This document shows, one piece after another, positions 21,625-43,404 of a stretch of 64,000 bases of DNA. The position numbers and the translations under genes were made by a program. Position 1 is the stretch's first letter, and every line of letters starts with the position of its first letter. This DNA is from a virus. Location: positions 1 through 64,000 of the IMG/VR virus record IMGVR_UViG_3300009370_002293; one strand, written 5' to 3'. The notes beneath the pieces are model-generated. The model had not been told where the DNA came from, ran no database searches, and saw nothing but the letters and a program-made list of their open reading frames with translations.

Positions 21625-21701
<77 letters not shown>

Positions 21702-21705
21702 AAAT

Positions 21706-21792
21706 TGGTAGGGAAAGCGGGACTTGAACCCGCACGAACTAATGTTCGACAGATTTTAAGTCTGTTGTGTCTGCCAATTCCACCATTTCCCC
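21706..21792 (-). tRNA. tRNA-Leu (TAA)
   Basis: 87 nt with encoded CCA. Acceptor GGGGAAA/TTTCCCT, anticodon stem ACAGA/TCTGT with loop CTTAAAA (TAA), long variable arm CGAAC/GTTCG typical of class II tRNAs. It reads TTA, the favoured Leu codon here. Four bases separate it from tRNA-Arg. Confidence 0.95.
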
Positions 21793-26925: not shown

Positions 26926-27477
26926 TTATGCAAAATTTCTCTTATAAGGAAGGTCTGCCGTCCATTCAATTTGGCGACCTGTATCTCCATTAAACCAATA
27001 ATGGGCTACTTTTATTTCTCTTTCTTTATAAATCTCCTCTACCGTATCTGCAACTTCAAGCTGTTCAACCTCTCTCTTAACGTAATAGATGTCATAAATA
27101 GAATCTATAAGATTAGTATCATCTTTAGCTCTAACGTGCATCTCAACAAAGTCTTGAGCCTCTTCAAGAAAAACAAAATGTAATTTACCTTGATCCATCC
27201 AACCGCAGTAAGGCGACCCATCTTCCTCTTCAAAAGTCATATACTCTCTTTCGGAGGCAAAGCTACCTCTAATGTTTTCGCTAAATGTCCACTCGCCTTG
27301 GCCTCTTTCATAACAATAAACTCTATAGTCCCAATTATAACCCGCCTCTCCAGTTTCCCCTTCGTGACCTTTTGGGTCAGTCTCATTGTTATCTTTTTCC
27401 TCGTATTTACAAGTAACTGTCCAAGTGGTCAGCGCACCCATAACCGATGCTTTTTTTATAAAATCTCTTCTATTCAT
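26926..27477 (-). CDS. exported protein with twin-arginine signal
   Basis: 183 aa. NRRDFIKKASVMGALTTW is a classic Tat signal (RRDFIKK plus hydrophobic stretch). The mature part is acidic and aromatic (WDYRVYCYERGQGEWTFSE), beta-rich. Tat exports folded or cofactor-bearing proteins to the periplasm. No family recognised. The gene overlaps the frameshifted gene by 8 nt. Confidence 0.65.
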   Translation of the reverse strand: MNRRDFIKKASVMGALTTWTVTCKYEEKDNNETDPKGHEGETGEAGYNWDYRVYCYERGQGEWTFSENIRGSFASEREYMTFEEEDGSPYCGWMDQGKLHFVFLEEAQDFVEMHVRAKDDTNLIDSIYDIYYVKREVEQLEVADTVEEIYKEREIKVAHYWFNGDTGRQIEWTADLPYKRNFA

Positions 27478-27699
27478 GTGAACGTGGACGGGGTTGATTC
27501 CTGTATACCTTTAAAGCATTTAGCGCGTCTTCTGCATTGGCAAACTTTTCTAATTGCTTCGACATTTCCTCTACGATTTGTGGGTGTTCACCAATACCCA
27601 CTGAATTAGAAAAATAAACGTCCAGAGTGGCGCTTGCCTCCTTTTTTGGGCTTCGTATTTAGATTGAAGGGCGTCGGTTAAACTCTTTTTTATGTCCAT
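27470..27699 (-). pseudogene. conserved small phage protein split by a frameshift
   Basis: The start (ATG 27699, MDIKKSLTDALQSKYEAQK) and the continuation (EASATLDVYFSNSVGIGEHP, then QIVEEMSKQLEKFANAEDAL) lie in different frames. They join at a run of six As (plus-strand T 27642-27647) followed by GGAGG. The joined product matches a small helix-rich family I know from marine phages (VGIGEHP motif). One more A restores the frame. It could be programmed slippage, a real mutation or a homopolymer sequencing error. Confidence 0.65.
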
Positions 27700-28532
27700 T
27701 CTTTAAAAATATTTTTAATTAAAAATTTAAGATTTTTCCATTCGCGTAATCTTCTTAACGTATACGGAAACCAATCGTTTCCGAACGGTACATAGATTCT
27801 AACTTTATATTGTTTTTGAAGCAAGCTTTTTTGTAAATCACGACGGATTCCGTAGAGAAATTCATAATCAAAATAATGTGGACAGGGTATCAATTCGGTT
27901 ATGTCTTCTAAAAGAGATTCATCATGCGTAGCTATAGCTGGTTTATTTGCCTTGGCTGAATAAAGAGTCGCTGCATAATGAAAAAAATTGTTTTCTATAT
28001 CCCATTCATTTTGATAAGCTATTTTTTCAGACTCTTTATAAGCCCCCTTAACTAAACGAACAGAGACATTATTATCTATTAAATGTTGCAGATCATTTTC
28101 TGTTCTAAATAGATTAGCTTGAATAGCCACACCTACGTTTCCGTATTTTTTATTAAGTGATATAGCTGTATTTCGTGTAAGCTCTGTTTTAAAATCTTTT
28201 GAGTCCTCCATGTCCAAACGAATAGTATGCCCATGTTTTTTAGCATACTTTGCAATTTTATTTAAATATTCATAAGAAATAACGGGATTAATAAGCAGCC
28301 CCAGTTGCGAGGGTTTAATAGATATATCTAGCGTAATGTCTTTATAAAACTTAATTATTTTAAAATATTGGTCAGCAGCCTTTTCACAATCTTCACGAGT
28401 TTTACTTAATTCACCTAAATAATCTACAGAAACATCAAACCCATCATTTATTAGCCCCTCAATAACTGGACGCGCGGATTTAAAGTCATGTCCCGCAATA
28501 AAGCGTTTAGCTAATGGATATAATAGGTTCAT
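27690..28532 (-). CDS. proline dehydrogenase
   Basis: 280 aa, a TIM barrel of the monofunctional PRODH family. Signatures: DISIKPSQLG (about 69-78), IRLDMED, VSVRLVKGAYKES, AIATHDESLL, FEFLYGIRRDLQ (here YEFLYGIRRDLQ) and VYVPFGxxWxPYxxRRLRE-type RIYVPFGNDWFPYTLRRLRE. It oxidises proline to pyrroline-5-carboxylate with FAD, passing electrons to the membrane quinone pool. It overlaps the ornithine-cyclodeaminase gene by 1 nt, so the pair should be made together. Known as a host gene, and unusual on phages. Confidence 0.9.
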   Translation of the reverse strand: MNLLYPLAKRFIAGHDFKSARPVIEGLINDGFDVSVDYLGELSKTREDCEKAADQYFKIIKFYKDITLDISIKPSQLGLLINPVISYEYLNKIAKYAKKHGHTIRLDMEDSKDFKTELTRNTAISLNKKYGNVGVAIQANLFRTENDLQHLIDNNVSVRLVKGAYKESEKIAYQNEWDIENNFFHYAATLYSAKANKPAIATHDESLLEDITELIPCPHYFDYEFLYGIRRDLQKSLLQKQYKVRIYVPFGNDWFPYTLRRLREWKNLKFLIKNIFKEWT

Positions 28533-29464
28533 TAAATATTTGGACCATTATACAGTTTATAGACAAGTATAGCTACAGCAATATCCTCAAGGGCTACACC
28601 TGTTGAATCAAAAATAGAAACCCCTTTATTTAGCTGCATTGTTTTATGATTGGCAATTAAAGTGGGTAAACTTGTCACTGGTAAATAAGGCCACTCGTTA
28701 TACTGTAACTCTCCAGAATGAAAAGCTTGAACCGAATCATCGCAAATAACGTCAGCGGCTCCATCAATCACATTAGGCATCAACTCTCTTTTACCAACTG
28801 CGTCAGCACCAACAGCGTTAATATGACAATCGCTTTTAAGATCAAGAATATTCAAATAAGGTTCAGTGGATGGAGTAAGAGTTGTAATAACGTCAGCATC
28901 TCTAACTGCACTTTGTACCGACTCATTTCGCCCATAACTAGAGGCAGAAAGGTTTACACCAAGCCAACGCATCATATCTTTTTGAGCTTTTTCGTTTCTA
29001 TCGTAAAATTGAATATTAATATTAGTTCCAAATACTTCATTGTAAGCGTTTATGTGATATTTAGCTTGCAAGCCACAACCTATGATTGCAAAGTTTTTAG
29101 CTTTTGGGGCACAGTATTTAGCGGCAATCGCAGAAGTAGCTGCGGTTCTATACGCAGTAAGAGTAGTGCAGTCCATAGCCCCCAGTGGTTTACCCGTGAA
29201 CCTATCGTTTAAAAGAAGTGTGCCAATGGTAGTGGGCAAGTTAAATTGTTTATTATTTGGAAATACACCGATCCATTTTAACACAGCGTAGCCCTCTAAA
29301 GCCGCTGGCATGGCCCTAAAATCTCCATTTGAGTGAGCGTTCAGGTAAACCTTTGGAACCATTTTTGCTGTCTTGTCAAGAAAAGCAGACTCAATAGACT
29401 TTATTATATGACTCCATTTACCATCTAAAATTTCGCCCACCTGAATATTATCAATATATTTCAT
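28532..29464 (-). CDS. ornithine cyclodeaminase / mu-crystallin family protein
   Basis: 310 aa. N-terminal substrate domain (VPKVYL, FRAMPAAL, DRFTGKPLGAMDCTTLTAYRTAATSA) and a Rossmann domain (IIGCGLQAKYHINAY, VGADAVGKRELM). The family turns ornithine into proline plus ammonia using NAD; relatives act on lysine, or reduce imino acids and dehydrogenate alanine. The adjacent proline dehydrogenase makes the ornithine-to-proline reaction the most economical reading. Upstream it overlaps the membrane gene at 29461 by 4 nt. Confidence 0.85.
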   Translation of the reverse strand: MKYIDNIQVGEILDGKWSHIIKSIESAFLDKTAKMVPKVYLNAHSNGDFRAMPAALEGYAVLKWIGVFPNNKQFNLPTTIGTLLLNDRFTGKPLGAMDCTTLTAYRTAATSAIAAKYCAPKAKNFAIIGCGLQAKYHINAYNEVFGTNINIQFYDRNEKAQKDMMRWLGVNLSASSYGRNESVQSAVRDADVITTLTPSTEPYLNILDLKSDCHINAVGADAVGKRELMPNVIDGAADVICDDSVQAFHSGELQYNEWPYLPVTSLPTLIANHKTMQLNKGVSIFDSTGVALEDIAVAILVYKLYNGPNI

Positions 29465-30042
29465 TCATTTGGTTTCTCGTGTATATCTGATGGTAAAAGC
29501 TCATGGAACTCCCATTCTTGATTTTGCGATTCGCTTCCTTCACCCTTTTTATCAGAAGGCGCTTTACCTTTTCCTGTTCCGTTTTTCTGTTCACCTTTTG
29601 TTTTATTTAGCTTGCCAAATACGGGTTGTCCCTTTTTTAGTTTTTGGCTGATCTTATTGAGTTGCTCGTGTAATTTACGATTATATTTTATTTTATATAA
29701 ACGAGGTTCAATTAAGTTATTTTTATATCCAAAAAAATCTACTATATTTCCTTTGTTGGATTTATTGGCTGATTCTGCTAAAATATATATTGAGCCTTCC
29801 CTCTTGGTGAGTTTATTGGGTTCTTTTATTATTACCCAGTGAATTAATATTTTTTCTGGTAAGTCATTCTCGTTAGCACCCCAGCCCAAAAAAGTATGAA
29901 TTGAAGTCCAAAAAACAATAGTAAAAACACAAAAGGCTGTAATACAAACGGTTTTAAAATACCATTTTAATGCTGATTCAGTTAGTAACCAAAAAGTTAA
30001 AGCCCCAAATACTAATAATAAAATGGGTAGTGCTATATTCAT
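29461..30042 (-). CDS. membrane protein with low-complexity tail
   Basis: 193 aa. Two transmembrane helices (ALPILLLVFGALTFWLL, about 4-20, and VCITAFCVFTIVFWTSI, about 32-48), a soluble domain and a Lys/Gly/Glu-rich tail (about 145-180). It overlaps both neighbours by 4 nt. No family recognised. Confidence 0.6.
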   Translation of the reverse strand: MNIALPILLLVFGALTFWLLTESALKWYFKTVCITAFCVFTIVFWTSIHTFLGWGANENDLPEKILIHWVIIKEPNKLTKREGSIYILAESANKSNKGNIVDFFGYKNNLIEPRLYKIKYNRKLHEQLNKISQKLKKGQPVFGKLNKTKGEQKNGTGKGKAPSDKKGEGSESQNQEWEFHELLPSDIHEKPNE

Positions 30043-34345: not shown

Positions 34346-34936
34346 TCATTCTTCTAGGGGGGTTATAAGGTTTGCGGGCAACTCATTTACATCTAAAATA
34401 TCACCATTTTTATCCGTTGTAAAGCGAAAAGCGGTTTTCTCTTGCCCTGTAGTTTCAAACACCCTTTCTTTTACCACTACTTCTTTAAAGGGTTTAATTT
34501 TAATCAATCTAATTGAAGCCTTTATGGGTTCGGTGTCTCTTTTGGAATAAACGTGAACAGTTACAATATTTTCACCGGCAACAACACCTCTAAATGAAAC
34601 CACTTCTTCGTGAAACTCTACTATTTTACCCTCTTGTCCTTGACCTAATTGATTATTTCTACTTCCTAGTGCATCGTGGTCTAGACTAATTAAACTCCCG
34701 TCACCACCTTCTCTATTGTTAAAATAAACCTTATGCCCCGAAGCCGATTGAACATATAAATCCAAATCGTCTGCGCTTTCTCCGCGCCATGTTAAAACAA
34801 CTTCATATATAACATTAGGTGGGCGCGCCTTTGTTTTTTCTTCTTCTGTTTTTAACAAAAAAAGAATGGCAACCAACATCAACAGACAACAAAAGAGTAC
34901 GTCAATAAAGGGCCTGAATGAAAAAAACTTTCTCAT
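34346..34936 (-). CDS. ExbD/TolR-like protein with beta-sandwich C-terminus
   Basis: 196 aa. One N-terminal helix with the key Asp in FRPFIDVLFCCLLMLVAIL (residues 7-25; Asp12 is the ExbD/TolR/MotB proton-carrier position). The periplasmic part (VIYEVVLTWRGESADDLDLY, then VYFNNREGGDGSLISLDHDA) looks like a DUF2135-type beta-sandwich, not the usual ExbD or peptidoglycan-binding domain. It is paired with the ExbB-like gene 2 nt upstream. An ExbB5-ExbD2 type motor uses proton-motive force to drive envelope work. Confidence 0.7.
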   Translation of the reverse strand: MRKFFSFRPFIDVLFCCLLMLVAILFLLKTEEEKTKARPPNVIYEVVLTWRGESADDLDLYVQSASGHKVYFNNREGGDGSLISLDHDALGSRNNQLGQGQEGKIVEFHEEVVSFRGVVAGENIVTVHVYSKRDTEPIKASIRLIKIKPFKEVVVKERVFETTGQEKTAFRFTTDKNGDILDVNELPANLITPLEE

Positions 34937-34938
34937 AT

Positions 34939-35427
34939 TTAATTATCCGCAACATCTTTTGAATCCAATTTAAATTTTAAAATCATAAGTTGAACTTGAA
35001 GTGGTAAACTAAATACAATACCACAAACTGTTGTATAAAATGCCGTATTTAAACCTTCTTTGAGGCCCGCTACTATTTGGCTTGTCTGTAAAGAGGAATC
35101 TAAGTTACCTTTAGTAGCGATAACCAACCCTATAATAGTTCCAAGTAAGCCTAAAGAAAAAAAATGTTCGGCTGCAAACCAACCAACTGCCGCTTTTTTT
35201 GCCAAAAAATTCGTGGCCTCTTTTTCCTTTTTCTTATTTATTCTATCAGCTAAGTAACAAAGCCGCCCGATGTATCCAGAAACTATAACATATAAAAACA
35301 TAATCAATATAGATATATGCGAGAGGTCATTCTTAATGATAGAAGAGATTATACCCTTTTGTTCCGCAAAAAATAAAGAAGTTATAATTACAGAATTAAC
35401 CAAAAACCACTTTATAAATGTTGTCAT
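34939..35427 (-). CDS. MotA/TolQ/ExbB-like proton-channel protein
   Basis: 162 aa. Three transmembrane helices (about 8-20, 37-55, and the conserved pair 85-105 and 125-150). FSLGLLGTIIGLVIA and NTAFYTTVCGIVFSLPLQ match the pore-lining MotA/TolQ/ExbB signature with the Thr/Gly residues. It is shorter than ExbB (about 240 aa), lacking most of the cytoplasmic loop. It forms a unit with the ExbD-like gene. Confidence 0.75.
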   Translation of the reverse strand: MTTFIKWFLVNSVIITSLFFAEQKGIISSIIKNDLSHISILIMFLYVIVSGYIGRLCYLADRINKKKEKEATNFLAKKAAVGWFAAEHFFSLGLLGTIIGLVIATKGNLDSSLQTSQIVAGLKEGLNTAFYTTVCGIVFSLPLQVQLMILKFKLDSKDVADN

Positions 35428-35640: not shown

Positions 35641-35865
35641 CTAGTATTGTCTTTCGTCGTAATCCGTATAATGAAGACGGTTGGACTCGTTACTGGTATG
35701 CCATTCGTAGGTTTCAGTACGTGGTCTAATGCATTGGTCCATTTCAAATTGTCTCTGACGACACACTAAAATACTCTCAAGGTGATTTTTAACAGTCTTC
35801 TCGCGATTAAACCATAAACTTATACGCAAAAAAAACTTAAATAAAAAAAGGTTTACTCTTTCCAT
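35641..35865 (-). CDS. small hypothetical protein
   Basis: 74 aa with a hydrophobic/basic N-terminus (LFLFKFFLRISLWFNREK) and a polar end. The first 16 residues could lie in a membrane. No family recognised. Confidence 0.5.
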   Translation of the reverse strand: MERVNLFLFKFFLRISLWFNREKTVKNHLESILVCRQRQFEMDQCIRPRTETYEWHTSNESNRLHYTDYDERQY

Positions 35866-36227
35866 GTTAATTTTATTAGGTTGTCGCCAAAAAATTCTTC
35901 TGTATAATTGATTACACTTTTATAAGCAAAAGGTTTACAAGTATATATATCTATTGAAAAAAACGGAGGTTTACGGTTATCCCAGCCATAAATATGCATT
36001 CCGCTCTCTTTCCAGTGCATATAGGCGCACCACCCATAATTTGCCTCATAATTACATACAGGGGTGGTTACGGCAGTCATATTTAAGACTTTTGTAATTT
36101 CTTGGCAATATTGGGTCATTTGTTCGGGTGTAAAAGGATTATGTAGAGTCCCTTCAACAACTATACGCTGCCTGCAAATATCAGGTGCTAGATCAATCCA
36201 TTCATTATTTAAATAATTTTTGTCCAT
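35853..36227 (-). CDS. speD: S-adenosylmethionine decarboxylase-like protein
   Basis: 124 aa from MDKNYLNN. A frame to 36320 exists but overlaps the previous gene. RIVVEGTLHNPF (N-terminal strand), KESGMHIYGWDNRK (the Glu-Ser self-cleavage point and the following His) and FFSIDIYTC match prokaryotic SpeD. SpeD supplies the aminopropyl donor for spermidine. The Ser after Glu would become the pyruvoyl group. Many marine phages carry speD. Confidence 0.7.
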   Translation of the reverse strand: MDKNYLNNEWIDLAPDICRQRIVVEGTLHNPFTPEQMTQYCQEITKVLNMTAVTTPVCNYEANYGWCAYMHWKESGMHIYGWDNRKPPFFSIDIYTCKPFAYKSVINYTEEFFGDNLIKLTWKE

Positions 36228-36442
36228 TTTAAGTATCCATATAGGTTCATTAATAAAATAACAAAAGACATCACTGATGTCGAGTATGCTTTTTTGAAAA
36301 AACAATACAATCCAACGCAAAAATTACCAATAATCCAAGCGATCCAGCCAGATACACAATGGTTAGCGTTAAGATAATAGCCAGCGACCACAAAAAATGC
36401 ACCAATTCCGCCAAGAATTTCATAGAAGCCGCTGACTTTCAT
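36209..36442 (-). CDS. small multi-pass membrane protein
   Basis: 77 aa from MKVSGFYE, three hydrophobic helices (GGIGAFFVVAGYYL, IAWIIGNFCVGLYCF, VMSFVILLMNLYGYLKW). The last resembles the pore-end of PnuC/SWEET-type transporters (NxYGYxKW), but it is too short to be a full transporter. It overlaps neighbours on both sides. Confidence 0.5.
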   Translation of the reverse strand: MKVSGFYEILGGIGAFFVVAGYYLNANHCVSGWIAWIIGNFCVGLYCFFKKAYSTSVMSFVILLMNLYGYLKWTKII

Positions 36443-40113: not shown

Positions 40114-40203
40114 TTATTTTTTATCAATGAGAGATTCTATTATATTTTTAAAAAGGTAATAGATAAAATAAACAATATATAAAAAGAAATCTAATAATTT
40201 CAT
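40114..40203 (-). CDS. tiny membrane peptide
   Basis: 29 aa, one transmembrane helix (LLDFFLYIVYFIYYLFKNII). ATG overlaps the TGA of the sigma gene, so it is coupled to it. No family. Confidence 0.45.
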   Translation of the reverse strand: MKLLDFFLYIVYFIYYLFKNIIESLIDKK

Positions 40204-40892
40204 CGATATTTTTTGCCAAGTCGTTGCAAATACTTTCGAGCATAAAAAAGCCGTGACATTATAGTTCCTACTGGCACATGCAATAACTTTGCTATCTCAG
40301 GGTAACTCAACTGGTCTACCTCATATAAAATTATAACCTCACGATGTTTGGGTTCTAACTTATCTAATAATTTAGTGCTTAGTTTAATTTTTGATTTTTT
40401 TATATCCTTATCCACCCTTTTTTTACTCGGGGTCTCCATGTCAATCAAACCTCCACCCTCTACTGGTATTCCTTTTATATGCGCTTCCCCGTTTCGAATA
40501 GTTAAATTTTTCCCCGCATTTGATGCCGTATGGCCGCCGTCAGTGGATTCATGTTCTAAAACGGAGTTATCGGAGGATATGTATACAAATTTATGTTCGT
40601 GCCTTTGTCTTTTACGCCAATCATCATAAAAATTATTTCGTGCAATGGCATTAGCCCAGACTTTGAAGGTGGACTTAAACTTAAATTGACTAATTCTTTG
40701 CCAGCTTTTTATTAAAGTTTGTTGAAATATTTCTTCTTCTATTTCTAAATTCCCTTTTGTATAACTCTTAATCCACCCCCTTATGTATTCCTCATTCCTT
40801 ATGATAAGTTCTTCGAAAGCCGTTTCGTCTTTAGCTTGGGCTAATTTTATTAATTGTTTCTCCTCTTTTTCCTTGTAATCCGAGGTAACCAT
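40200..40892 (-). CDS. ECF-type sigma factor
   Basis: 230 aa. Region 2 (about 22-90: ETAFEELIIRNEEYIRGWIK, IFQQTLIKSWQRISQF, WANAIARNNFYDDWRKR) and region 4 helix-turn-helix (ELSYPEIAKLLHVPVGTIMSRLF). The joining part is unusually long (about 50 aa, Gly/Lys-rich) and separates the two domains. ECF factors read distinct -35/-10 pairs. It gives this phage a second polymerase-directing factor besides the one at 21868. Confidence 0.88.
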   Translation of the reverse strand: MVTSDYKEKEEKQLIKLAQAKDETAFEELIIRNEEYIRGWIKSYTKGNLEIEEEIFQQTLIKSWQRISQFKFKSTFKVWANAIARNNFYDDWRKRQRHEHKFVYISSDNSVLEHESTDGGHTASNAGKNLTIRNGEAHIKGIPVEGGGLIDMETPSKKRVDKDIKKSKIKLSTKLLDKLEPKHREVIILYEVDQLSYPEIAKLLHVPVGTIMSRLFYARKYLQRLGKKYR

Positions 40893-42512: not shown

Positions 42513-42692
42513 CTAGATTTCTTCAATAAGCTCTTTAAGGTTTTTCAAATAAAAAACCATAAAGCTATCACCTTGAGCATTTGCACCCTTGCCCATAGAC
42601 AGACATTGTTGTTTATATTTAACGTCCTGCTTAATCGCTTCGTCAATTAATTGATCGGTCAAATCTAAAGCTATTTCTTTTTTACTTTTCAT
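42513..42692 (-). CDS. small helical protein
   Basis: 59 aa (MKSKKEIALDLTDQLIDEAI), acidic and helical, with a Met/Gly-rich middle. Overlaps the phosphomannomutase gene by 11 nt. No family recognised. Confidence 0.5.
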   Translation of the reverse strand: MKSKKEIALDLTDQLIDEAIKQDVKYKQQCLSMGKGANAQGDSFMVFYLKNLKELIEEI

Positions 42693-43404
42693 TTTCGGTT
42701 AATATTTTAAAGGTTTCCTTTGCGTTTCTAACATTGAAGCATTTACCATCACGATGCCTTTCTAGGTCTTGGCAGATGTCGTAATCGTTACCGCCCTTAA
42801 AGCATTTGTCTCCAAAAAAAATCATTTTTTTATTATGGTTCTCTCTGATCCACGAAGATGCCTGAGATTTATTCCATCCACACGGCTGTATATCTATGCT
42901 TTTCTGCCCCCCTATACGTATATCAAATTGAGGAAATTTTTTTTGTAAATCTTGTTGTATCGTTTTTCTTTCTTGGGTACGCGAATCCCAGTGGGCATAA
43001 TCATTACGCTCCTTAATAGAGGCGTGTGGGCCAATAATAGAAAAATTCAACATGCCATCCCTTGTTTCATGAAATTTTTTACTTTTTACAGGGTAAGGGG
43101 ATTTTTGGTGCCATAACAATAATTCAGTCAATAGTTTTACGGGAGGCTTCCACTCTCGTCTGTAAACATCTTTACCCTTTATTGTAAGACGATTCCCCAT
43201 CGAGCTAAAAATACCACTACTCCTATTTAGAATACTAGACGGAAGTTGTTCGCAGATTTTTTTAAATGAACCACCCCCCACCAAAAAAAACTTTTTATTT
43301 AAAGACCAACTTAAAAACTGAAGTACGTGCCCTGATTCTATAGGTCGAGTTGGTTCAGTTAAAGTTCCGTCTATATCAAATAAATAAATAGAATCTTCTT
43401 TCAT
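42682..43404 (-). CDS. eukaryotic-type phosphomannomutase (HAD family)
   Basis: 240 aa. DIDGTLTEPTRPI (10-22, catalytic Asp in DxD), ETRDGMLNFSIIG (112-124), GGQKSIDIQPCGWNKSQ (164-180) and FFGDKCFKGGNDYDI (197-211) are the signatures of human PMM1/PMM2. Bacteria normally use the unrelated alpha-D-phosphohexomutase. It interconverts mannose-6-P and mannose-1-P, feeding GDP-mannose. It fits the sugar-nucleotide genes nearby. Overlaps the protease gene at 43401 by 4 nt. Confidence 0.85.
   Translation of the reverse strand: MKEDSIYLFDIDGTLTEPTRPIESGHVLQFLSWSLNKKFFLVGGGSFKKICEQLPSSILNRSSGIFSSMGNRLTIKGKDVYRREWKPPVKLLTELLLWHQKSPYPVKSKKFHETRDGMLNFSIIGPHASIKERNDYAHWDSRTQERKTIQQDLQKKFPQFDIRIGGQKSIDIQPCGWNKSQASSWIRENHNKKMIFFGDKCFKGGNDYDICQDLERHRDGKCFNVRNAKETFKILTENEK

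Follow-up and report, generated by a model that had tools for sequence, protein, structure and literature searches.

A phage gene pair encoding a proline dehydrogenase and a predicted alanine-dehydrogenase-type member of the ornithine cyclodeaminase family

Gene layout and phage origin

The window analysed here is a stretch of 64,000 nucleotides, positions 1-64,000 of a viral record of 99,812 bases (99.8 kb; IMG/VR record IMGVR_UViG_3300009370_002293). We detected two complete open reading frames on its minus strand, encoding a member of the ornithine cyclodeaminase (OCD)/mu-crystallin family and a proline dehydrogenase (ProDH) (Table 1). As the first-pass annotation had noted, the genes overlap by a single base, within a TAATG stop/start at 28532. 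A third gene, U193, lies upstream and overlaps the OCD-like gene by 4 bp, and the three run head to tail. A Pfam search with U193 returned no match; in two other phages (G004 and G012) it directly touches ProDH. A homologue of U183, the gene downstream of ProDH, sits ahead of a Coq4-like gene in four other phages. A promoter scan gave no excess over shuffles.

Table 1. Features of the gene pair, its neighbours and related genes elsewhere on the record
Feature	Position	Strand	Basis
U183, Tat-like N-terminus (MNRRDFIKKAS), downstream of ProDH	26926..27477	-	sequence, recurrence
Monofunctional ProDH (FAD), 280 aa	27690..28532	-	PF01619, PDB matches, alignment, tree
OCD/mu-crystallin-family NAD-linked amino-acid (alanine-type) dehydrogenase (predicted), 310 aa	28532..29464	-	PF02423, 1OMO, alignment
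U193, phage-specific, hydrophobic N-terminus	29461..30042	-	ORF, recurrence, adjacency
SpeD-family (AdoMet decarboxylase) protein	35853..36320	-	PF02675, 33 bits (cut-off 25)
Coq4-like protein, 194 aa	36420..37004	-	HDxxHx11E motif, weak fold match
VOC	record 75147-75698, outside window
Aldehyde dehydrogenase (ALDH)	record 75700-77235, outside window
Saccharopine/lysine-dehydrogenase-like protein (SDH)	record 79093-80217, outside window		PF16653 78 bits, PF03435 35 bits

The record carries the phage hallmark genes RIIA, RIIB, DNA polymerase, DnaB, UvsX, primase, ligase, clamp loader, ThyX and RNR. Four other records with both genes (G001, G002, G012 and G019) also carry a terminase, and related ProDH genes were found at 65 viral loci. 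Cellular contamination, raised earlier as an explanation of the pair, is ruled out by this recurrent viral clade, the hallmark genes and the terminases, and the phage origin claimed at first reading stands. The pair has the features used to recognise phage auxiliary metabolic genes, namely a viral contig, phage hallmark genes and recurrence in independent phages.

The presence of a SpeD gene near the pair was confirmed with PF02675; in G014 and G017, SpeD directly precedes the SDH gene. The gene initially called Coq4-like is a less clear case. Its product scores 14.9 bits against Pfam PF05019, below the gathering cut-off of 22.9, and the only sensible match in a fold search was weak (6E12; probability 0.69, E 0.66, TM 0.46). 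We take 6E12 (Alr8543) to be a Coq4 homologue. The HDxxHx11E motif is invariant in 13 phage Coq4-like homologues, and the name is thus plausible, though not proven. The suspicion that this gene belongs with the pair gained support from another phage group (G037-G039), where a Coq4-like homologue overlaps the start of ProDH.

The window also encodes two phage tRNAs, Arg(TCT) and Leu(TAA) (21625-21792, minus strand), a phage Sigma-70/ECF-like sigma factor (40200-40892, minus strand; TIGR02937, 87 bits) and a eukaryotic-type phosphomannomutase (42682-43404, minus strand; PF03332, 110 bits). An ExbB/MotA-family channel protein (34939-35427, minus strand; PF01618, 29 bits) is encoded ahead of a product that has a single hydrophobic segment at its N-terminus (34346-34936, minus strand); together they look like a phage ExbB/ExbD-type pair, which is present in record L005 too.

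A viral lineage of proline dehydrogenases

The ProDH matches PF01619 with E=4e-27 (95.8 bits, gathering cut-off 27), and its best PDB matches are the enzymes of Thermus thermophilus and Deinococcus radiodurans (2G37 and 4H6Q). Like these it is monofunctional, and it has all of their active-site residues that were checked. It retains Lys73, Asp107, Tyr247, Arg260, Arg261 and Glu264 together with the motif RLVKGAY, which align with the substrate and flavin residues of PutA/ProDH structures. The six residues are invariant in 31/31 aligned viral sequences and are kept in four more divergent ones. These residues lend good support to the earlier assignment of a quinone-type ProDH that would convert proline to P5C. 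The Thermus-type equivalog model of NCBIfam gave 178 bits against a cut-off of 500, and by this score the phage enzyme is a divergent member of the family rather than a Thermus equivalog.

Two IMG/VR scans recovered 65 and then 70 viral loci with related ProDH, in largely overlapping sets. The viral proteins comprise those of large phages similar to the window phage (54-79% identical), those of T4-like phages, whose G+C is low (about 46-57% identical), and several more distant sets (29-39%). The closest cellular match found is 40% identical. In a tree of 48 sequences, 31 viral and 17 cellular (mostly from Myxococcota), a branch with 100/99 support separates all viral ProDHs from the cellular ones. 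With its long branches and limited cellular sampling, the tree shows a distinct viral lineage among these sequences rather than the origin of that lineage. The terminase matches in two of the T4-like ProDH phages cross in-frame TAA codons (G022:33843-35522, three; G029:23938-25437, two).

In the isolate-phage collection we found ProDH only in records that resemble host DNA, from Staphylococcus and Acinetobacter phages (the latter annotated putA). The record named Microcystis phage MaAM05 (MW495066.1, L006) has fliM, ompA, pomA, murJ and fabI around its ProDH and looks bacterial. None of these was used as evidence.

An OCD-family protein of a predicted alanine dehydrogenase type

The protein encoded ahead of ProDH matches PF02423 (OCD_Mu_crystall) with E=4e-62 (210 bits, cut-off 24), and it had been annotated as an ornithine cyclodeaminase that makes proline. 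In the Pseudomonas putida OCD (1U7H/1X7D), Arg45, Lys69 and Arg112 lie near the carboxylate and Asp228 at the alpha-amine (PMC3840593, PMC3497308), while Glu56 binds the delta-amine of the ornithine side chain (PMC3497308, PMC3840593). The phage protein shares the superfamily, the fold and three of these residues (Lys69, Arg112 and Asp228, retained as K63, R106 and D221), but Glu56 is replaced by Arg50 and Arg45 by Lys38, and the alignment has Arg and Lys at these positions in 12/12 viral homologues.

The active site corresponds more closely to that of the Archaeoglobus fulgidus alanine dehydrogenase (AfAlaDH; AF1665, 1OMO/1VLL). A modelling study of this enzyme proposed that Lys41, Lys65, Arg52 and Arg108 bind pyruvate and that Lys65 and Asp219 are catalytic (PMC10923667). 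The five residues (K41, R52, K65, R108 and D219) are matched by K38, R50, K63, R106 and D221 of the phage protein and are conserved in all 12 viral OCD-like proteins. Also shared is an Asp after beta-2 of the NAD-binding fold (Asp155 in the phage protein, invariant in the 12 viral members), which by its position points to the use of NAD(H) and not NADP(H). AF1665 was likewise the best match in every comparison: 1OMO scored 167 bits in phmmer against 92 for OCD, and 258 bits in a profile search against 168 for the delta1-pyrroline-2-carboxylate (P2C) reductase and 140 for OCD, and Foldseek with an AlphaFold model (pLDDT 87) placed 1OMO/1VLL on top.

The NCBIfam model for archaeal alanine dehydrogenase, TIGR02371, was the best of 14 models, yet its 188.6 bits fall below the equivalog cut-off of 409. 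Since the phage protein is in addition only about 34% identical to AfAlaDH, its substrate could be an amino or imino acid other than alanine. The viral OCD-like proteins form a branch of their own. The Arg-type motif (RAMP) is not confined to them and occurs in 50/79 sampled cellular relatives, a sample for which the search pattern partly contained the motif. Taken together, these comparisons suggest a function closest to that of amino-acid dehydrogenases of the alanine type, and we do not file the protein as a TIGR02371 equivalog.

A true ornithine cyclodeaminase feeding ProDH (ornithine to proline to P5C) would fit the family and the fold, the retained Asp228, Lys69 and Arg112 equivalents, the adjacency to ProDH in both gene orders and the SpeD gene on the phage. 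In addition, one reported OCD, from A. rhizogenes, likewise differs at Arg45 and Glu56 (PMC3840593). We nevertheless rejected this assignment as very improbable, given the replacement of both residues in every viral member and an AlaDH profile score nearly double that of OCD. The first-pass annotation had named action on another amino acid as the outcome that would overturn its cyclodeaminase; this is probably the case here, because Glu56 is replaced and the archaeal alanine dehydrogenase is by far the better match. The ornithine chain is unlikely because Arg50 stands for Glu56 and Lys38 for Arg45 and the AfAlaDH residues are kept; an NAD-linked and a quinone-linked oxidation running in parallel, both on predicted substrates, fit better. 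A common annotation trap is thereby corrected, as the gene that would be labelled ornithine cyclodeaminase probably does not act on ornithine.

The strongest rival for the OCD-like enzyme is a cyclic-ketimine (P2C/piperideine-2-carboxylate) reductase, whose product, L-proline or L-pipecolate, would then be oxidised by the ProDH-family enzyme. This role would join the two genes into one chain. The P2C reductase of T. litoralis ranks second both among structures and in the profile search, and the superfamily holds several separate P2C reductase families (PMC4113996). However, the T. litoralis enzyme has Leu where AfAlaDH and the phage proteins have Arg, and no hydroxyproline or D-proline enzyme was identified among the nearby genes. 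We consider the reductase a minority candidate and retain the alanine-type dehydrogenase as the preferred assignment.

Gene pairing, the wider gene set and a proposed role

Both genes are present in nine viral records and touch in five of them, representing four distinct phages, and the tight pairing seen at first reading is thus supported. OCD-like precedes ProDH in the window phage and in G006, and the reverse order is found in G001/G002 and in G019. The occurrence of both orders argues that closeness itself has been selected, rather than a single arrangement having been inherited unchanged. By our own estimate, adjacency would be expected in roughly 1% of cases per phage of 150-200 genes, and pairing by chance is unlikely. 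In the flanks of 80 cellular loci with OCD-like genes, a set picked by sequence patterns and therefore biased, we found no ProDH beside these genes.

The genes could also be unrelated cargo that became neighbours by accident. They lie 1.6-8.6 kb apart in the remaining four of the nine records, each occurs alone (OCD-like without a detected ProDH in G005, ProDH without OCD-like in the T4-like phages, most records being fragments), and common ancestry explains part of the adjacency. Set against the contacts in four distinct phages and in two orders, this explanation seems improbable.

Further enzymes, nearly all of them of amino-acid metabolism, are encoded on the window phage and on other phages. 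The SDH matched 3ABI best among structures by profile (129 vs 69 bits). We take 3ABI to be the L-lysine dehydrogenase of P. horikoshii, although the PDB text itself reads "uncharacterized protein PH1688". The ALDH retains the catalytic Cys282. Its scores against two NCBIfam P5C dehydrogenase models are below the cut-offs (280 vs 648 and 262 vs 660 bits), and we did not adopt that name.

In a distant phage group (L075, L076 and L265), ALDH, a thioredoxin-like protein (Trx), Coq4-like, ProDH and SDH form one cluster in this order. In L265, a 126-kb record with a terminase, the cluster has a tyrosine phenol-lyase/tryptophanase relative inserted between Coq4-like and ProDH (L265:3643-5004; TIGR02618, 643 bits; PRK13238, 591 bits, subfamily cut-off 285). 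The end of record L077 holds Coq4-like, ProDH and SDH. SDH precedes ProDH in L270, a putative phage record of 245 kb in which our search found no terminase, and ALDH and SDH are adjacent in G011. A histidine decarboxylase is encoded directly upstream of ProDH-OCD in G001/G002 (L002/L003); this phage enzyme was identified at L002:5889-6992 (NF002748, 490 bits, cut-off 305), in L003 and at L007:3671-4795. The ALDHs of the window phage and of the L075/L076/L265 group are only 36% identical, and therefore this slot may have been filled twice. That these amino-acid enzymes regroup repeatedly is the strongest argument that they share a role. A 595-kb uncultured huge phage encodes an ALDH 48% identical to that of the window phage (LR756511.1:319652-321115), with no partner genes within 10 kb.

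We propose, with a probability of about one in two, that the two genes belong to an amino-acid oxidation set carried by phages and not to an ornithine-to-P5C chain. ProDH would oxidise L-proline to P5C with FAD and pass the electrons to the host quinone pool. The OCD-family enzyme would be an L-amino-acid dehydrogenase that uses NAD(H), of the Archaeoglobus alanine-dehydrogenase type; it would interconvert a small L-amino acid (alanine is the likeliest) and NAD+ with the 2-oxo acid, NH4+ and NADH. The lysine-6-dehydrogenase-like enzyme and the ALDH could make and oxidise amino-acid semialdehydes, including P5C/glutamate semialdehyde. From the cell's amino-acid pool, such a set would yield NADH, reduced quinone, glutamate, pyruvate and ammonium, which in an infected cell may fuel respiration and the making of nucleotides. 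The phage origin, the pairing, the step from proline to P5C and the Coq4-like link of the original interpretation are thus kept, and the step from ornithine to proline is given up.

The position of ALDH and SDH in the window phage, among sugar and glycan genes, counts against an oxidation set, as these two enzymes may serve something else. The genes might instead make a special building block, such as an amino-acid-decorated glycan or a hypermodified base. The VOC-ALDH and SDH genes within the sugar-nucleotide/glycosyltransferase region and the amine-forming types SpeD and histidine decarboxylase agree with this explanation. It seems quite improbable to us, as ProDH and tyrosine phenol-lyase/tryptophanase belong to catabolic classes of enzyme and the ALDH-ProDH-SDH cluster of L076 and L265 contains no recognisable glycan genes.

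More tentatively, and with greater doubt than for the oxidation set itself, several unrelated large marine phage lineages may maintain a modular amino-acid catabolic system that during infection directs host amino acids straight to the quinone pool and to glutamate and ammonium, in hosts that would be marine heterotrophic bacteria. Its possible members are ProDH, the AlaDH-type and lysine-dehydrogenase-like enzymes, ALDH and the Coq4-like protein, sometimes with tyrosine phenol-lyase/tryptophanase or histidine decarboxylase. A ProDH lineage retained by several groups of phages, and shuffled together with NAD-linked dehydrogenases of amino acids, would offer a direct view of how phages that infect marine heterotrophic bacteria energise infection, with the host's amino acids, proline among them, burnt into the respiratory chain.

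Known phage metabolic genes mostly concern photosynthesis, nucleotides, phosphate or sulfur. The present genes resemble them in being metabolic genes on contigs with phage hallmarks, but amino-acid oxidation into quinones is absent from the phage reports that could be searched. Our text search, which covered the main texts of open-access papers (including PMC4053976 and PMC9599517) rather than supplements or subscription papers, found neither ProDH nor an OCD-family member described as an auxiliary gene of phages. The earlier statement that no phage module of this kind had been described holds for phages in the searchable papers; viral ProDH as such is known, having been described in 2008 in the algal prasinovirus OtV5 (PMC2386258) and reported for haptophyte viruses (PMC11953307). 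Those enzymes are virus-encoded and marine, as are the phage ones, but their carriers infect algae and are not phages, and the relevant passages describe no link to AlaDH, ALDH or LysDH genes (PMC2386258, PMC11953307).

Two observations give hints of hosts. Phage record G010, the carrier of a distant OCD-like gene, shares 11 kb at 99.99% identity with contig VFHP01000013.1 (L134), which is binned in the SAR202 genome OSU_TB57; we read this contig as phage DNA that was binned into a bacterial MAG, and the link to this host is a hint. In the T4-like ProDH phage L004, the capsid protein is 62-64% identical to those of Pelagibacter/Methylophilales myophages, a sequence similarity that likewise hints at the host.
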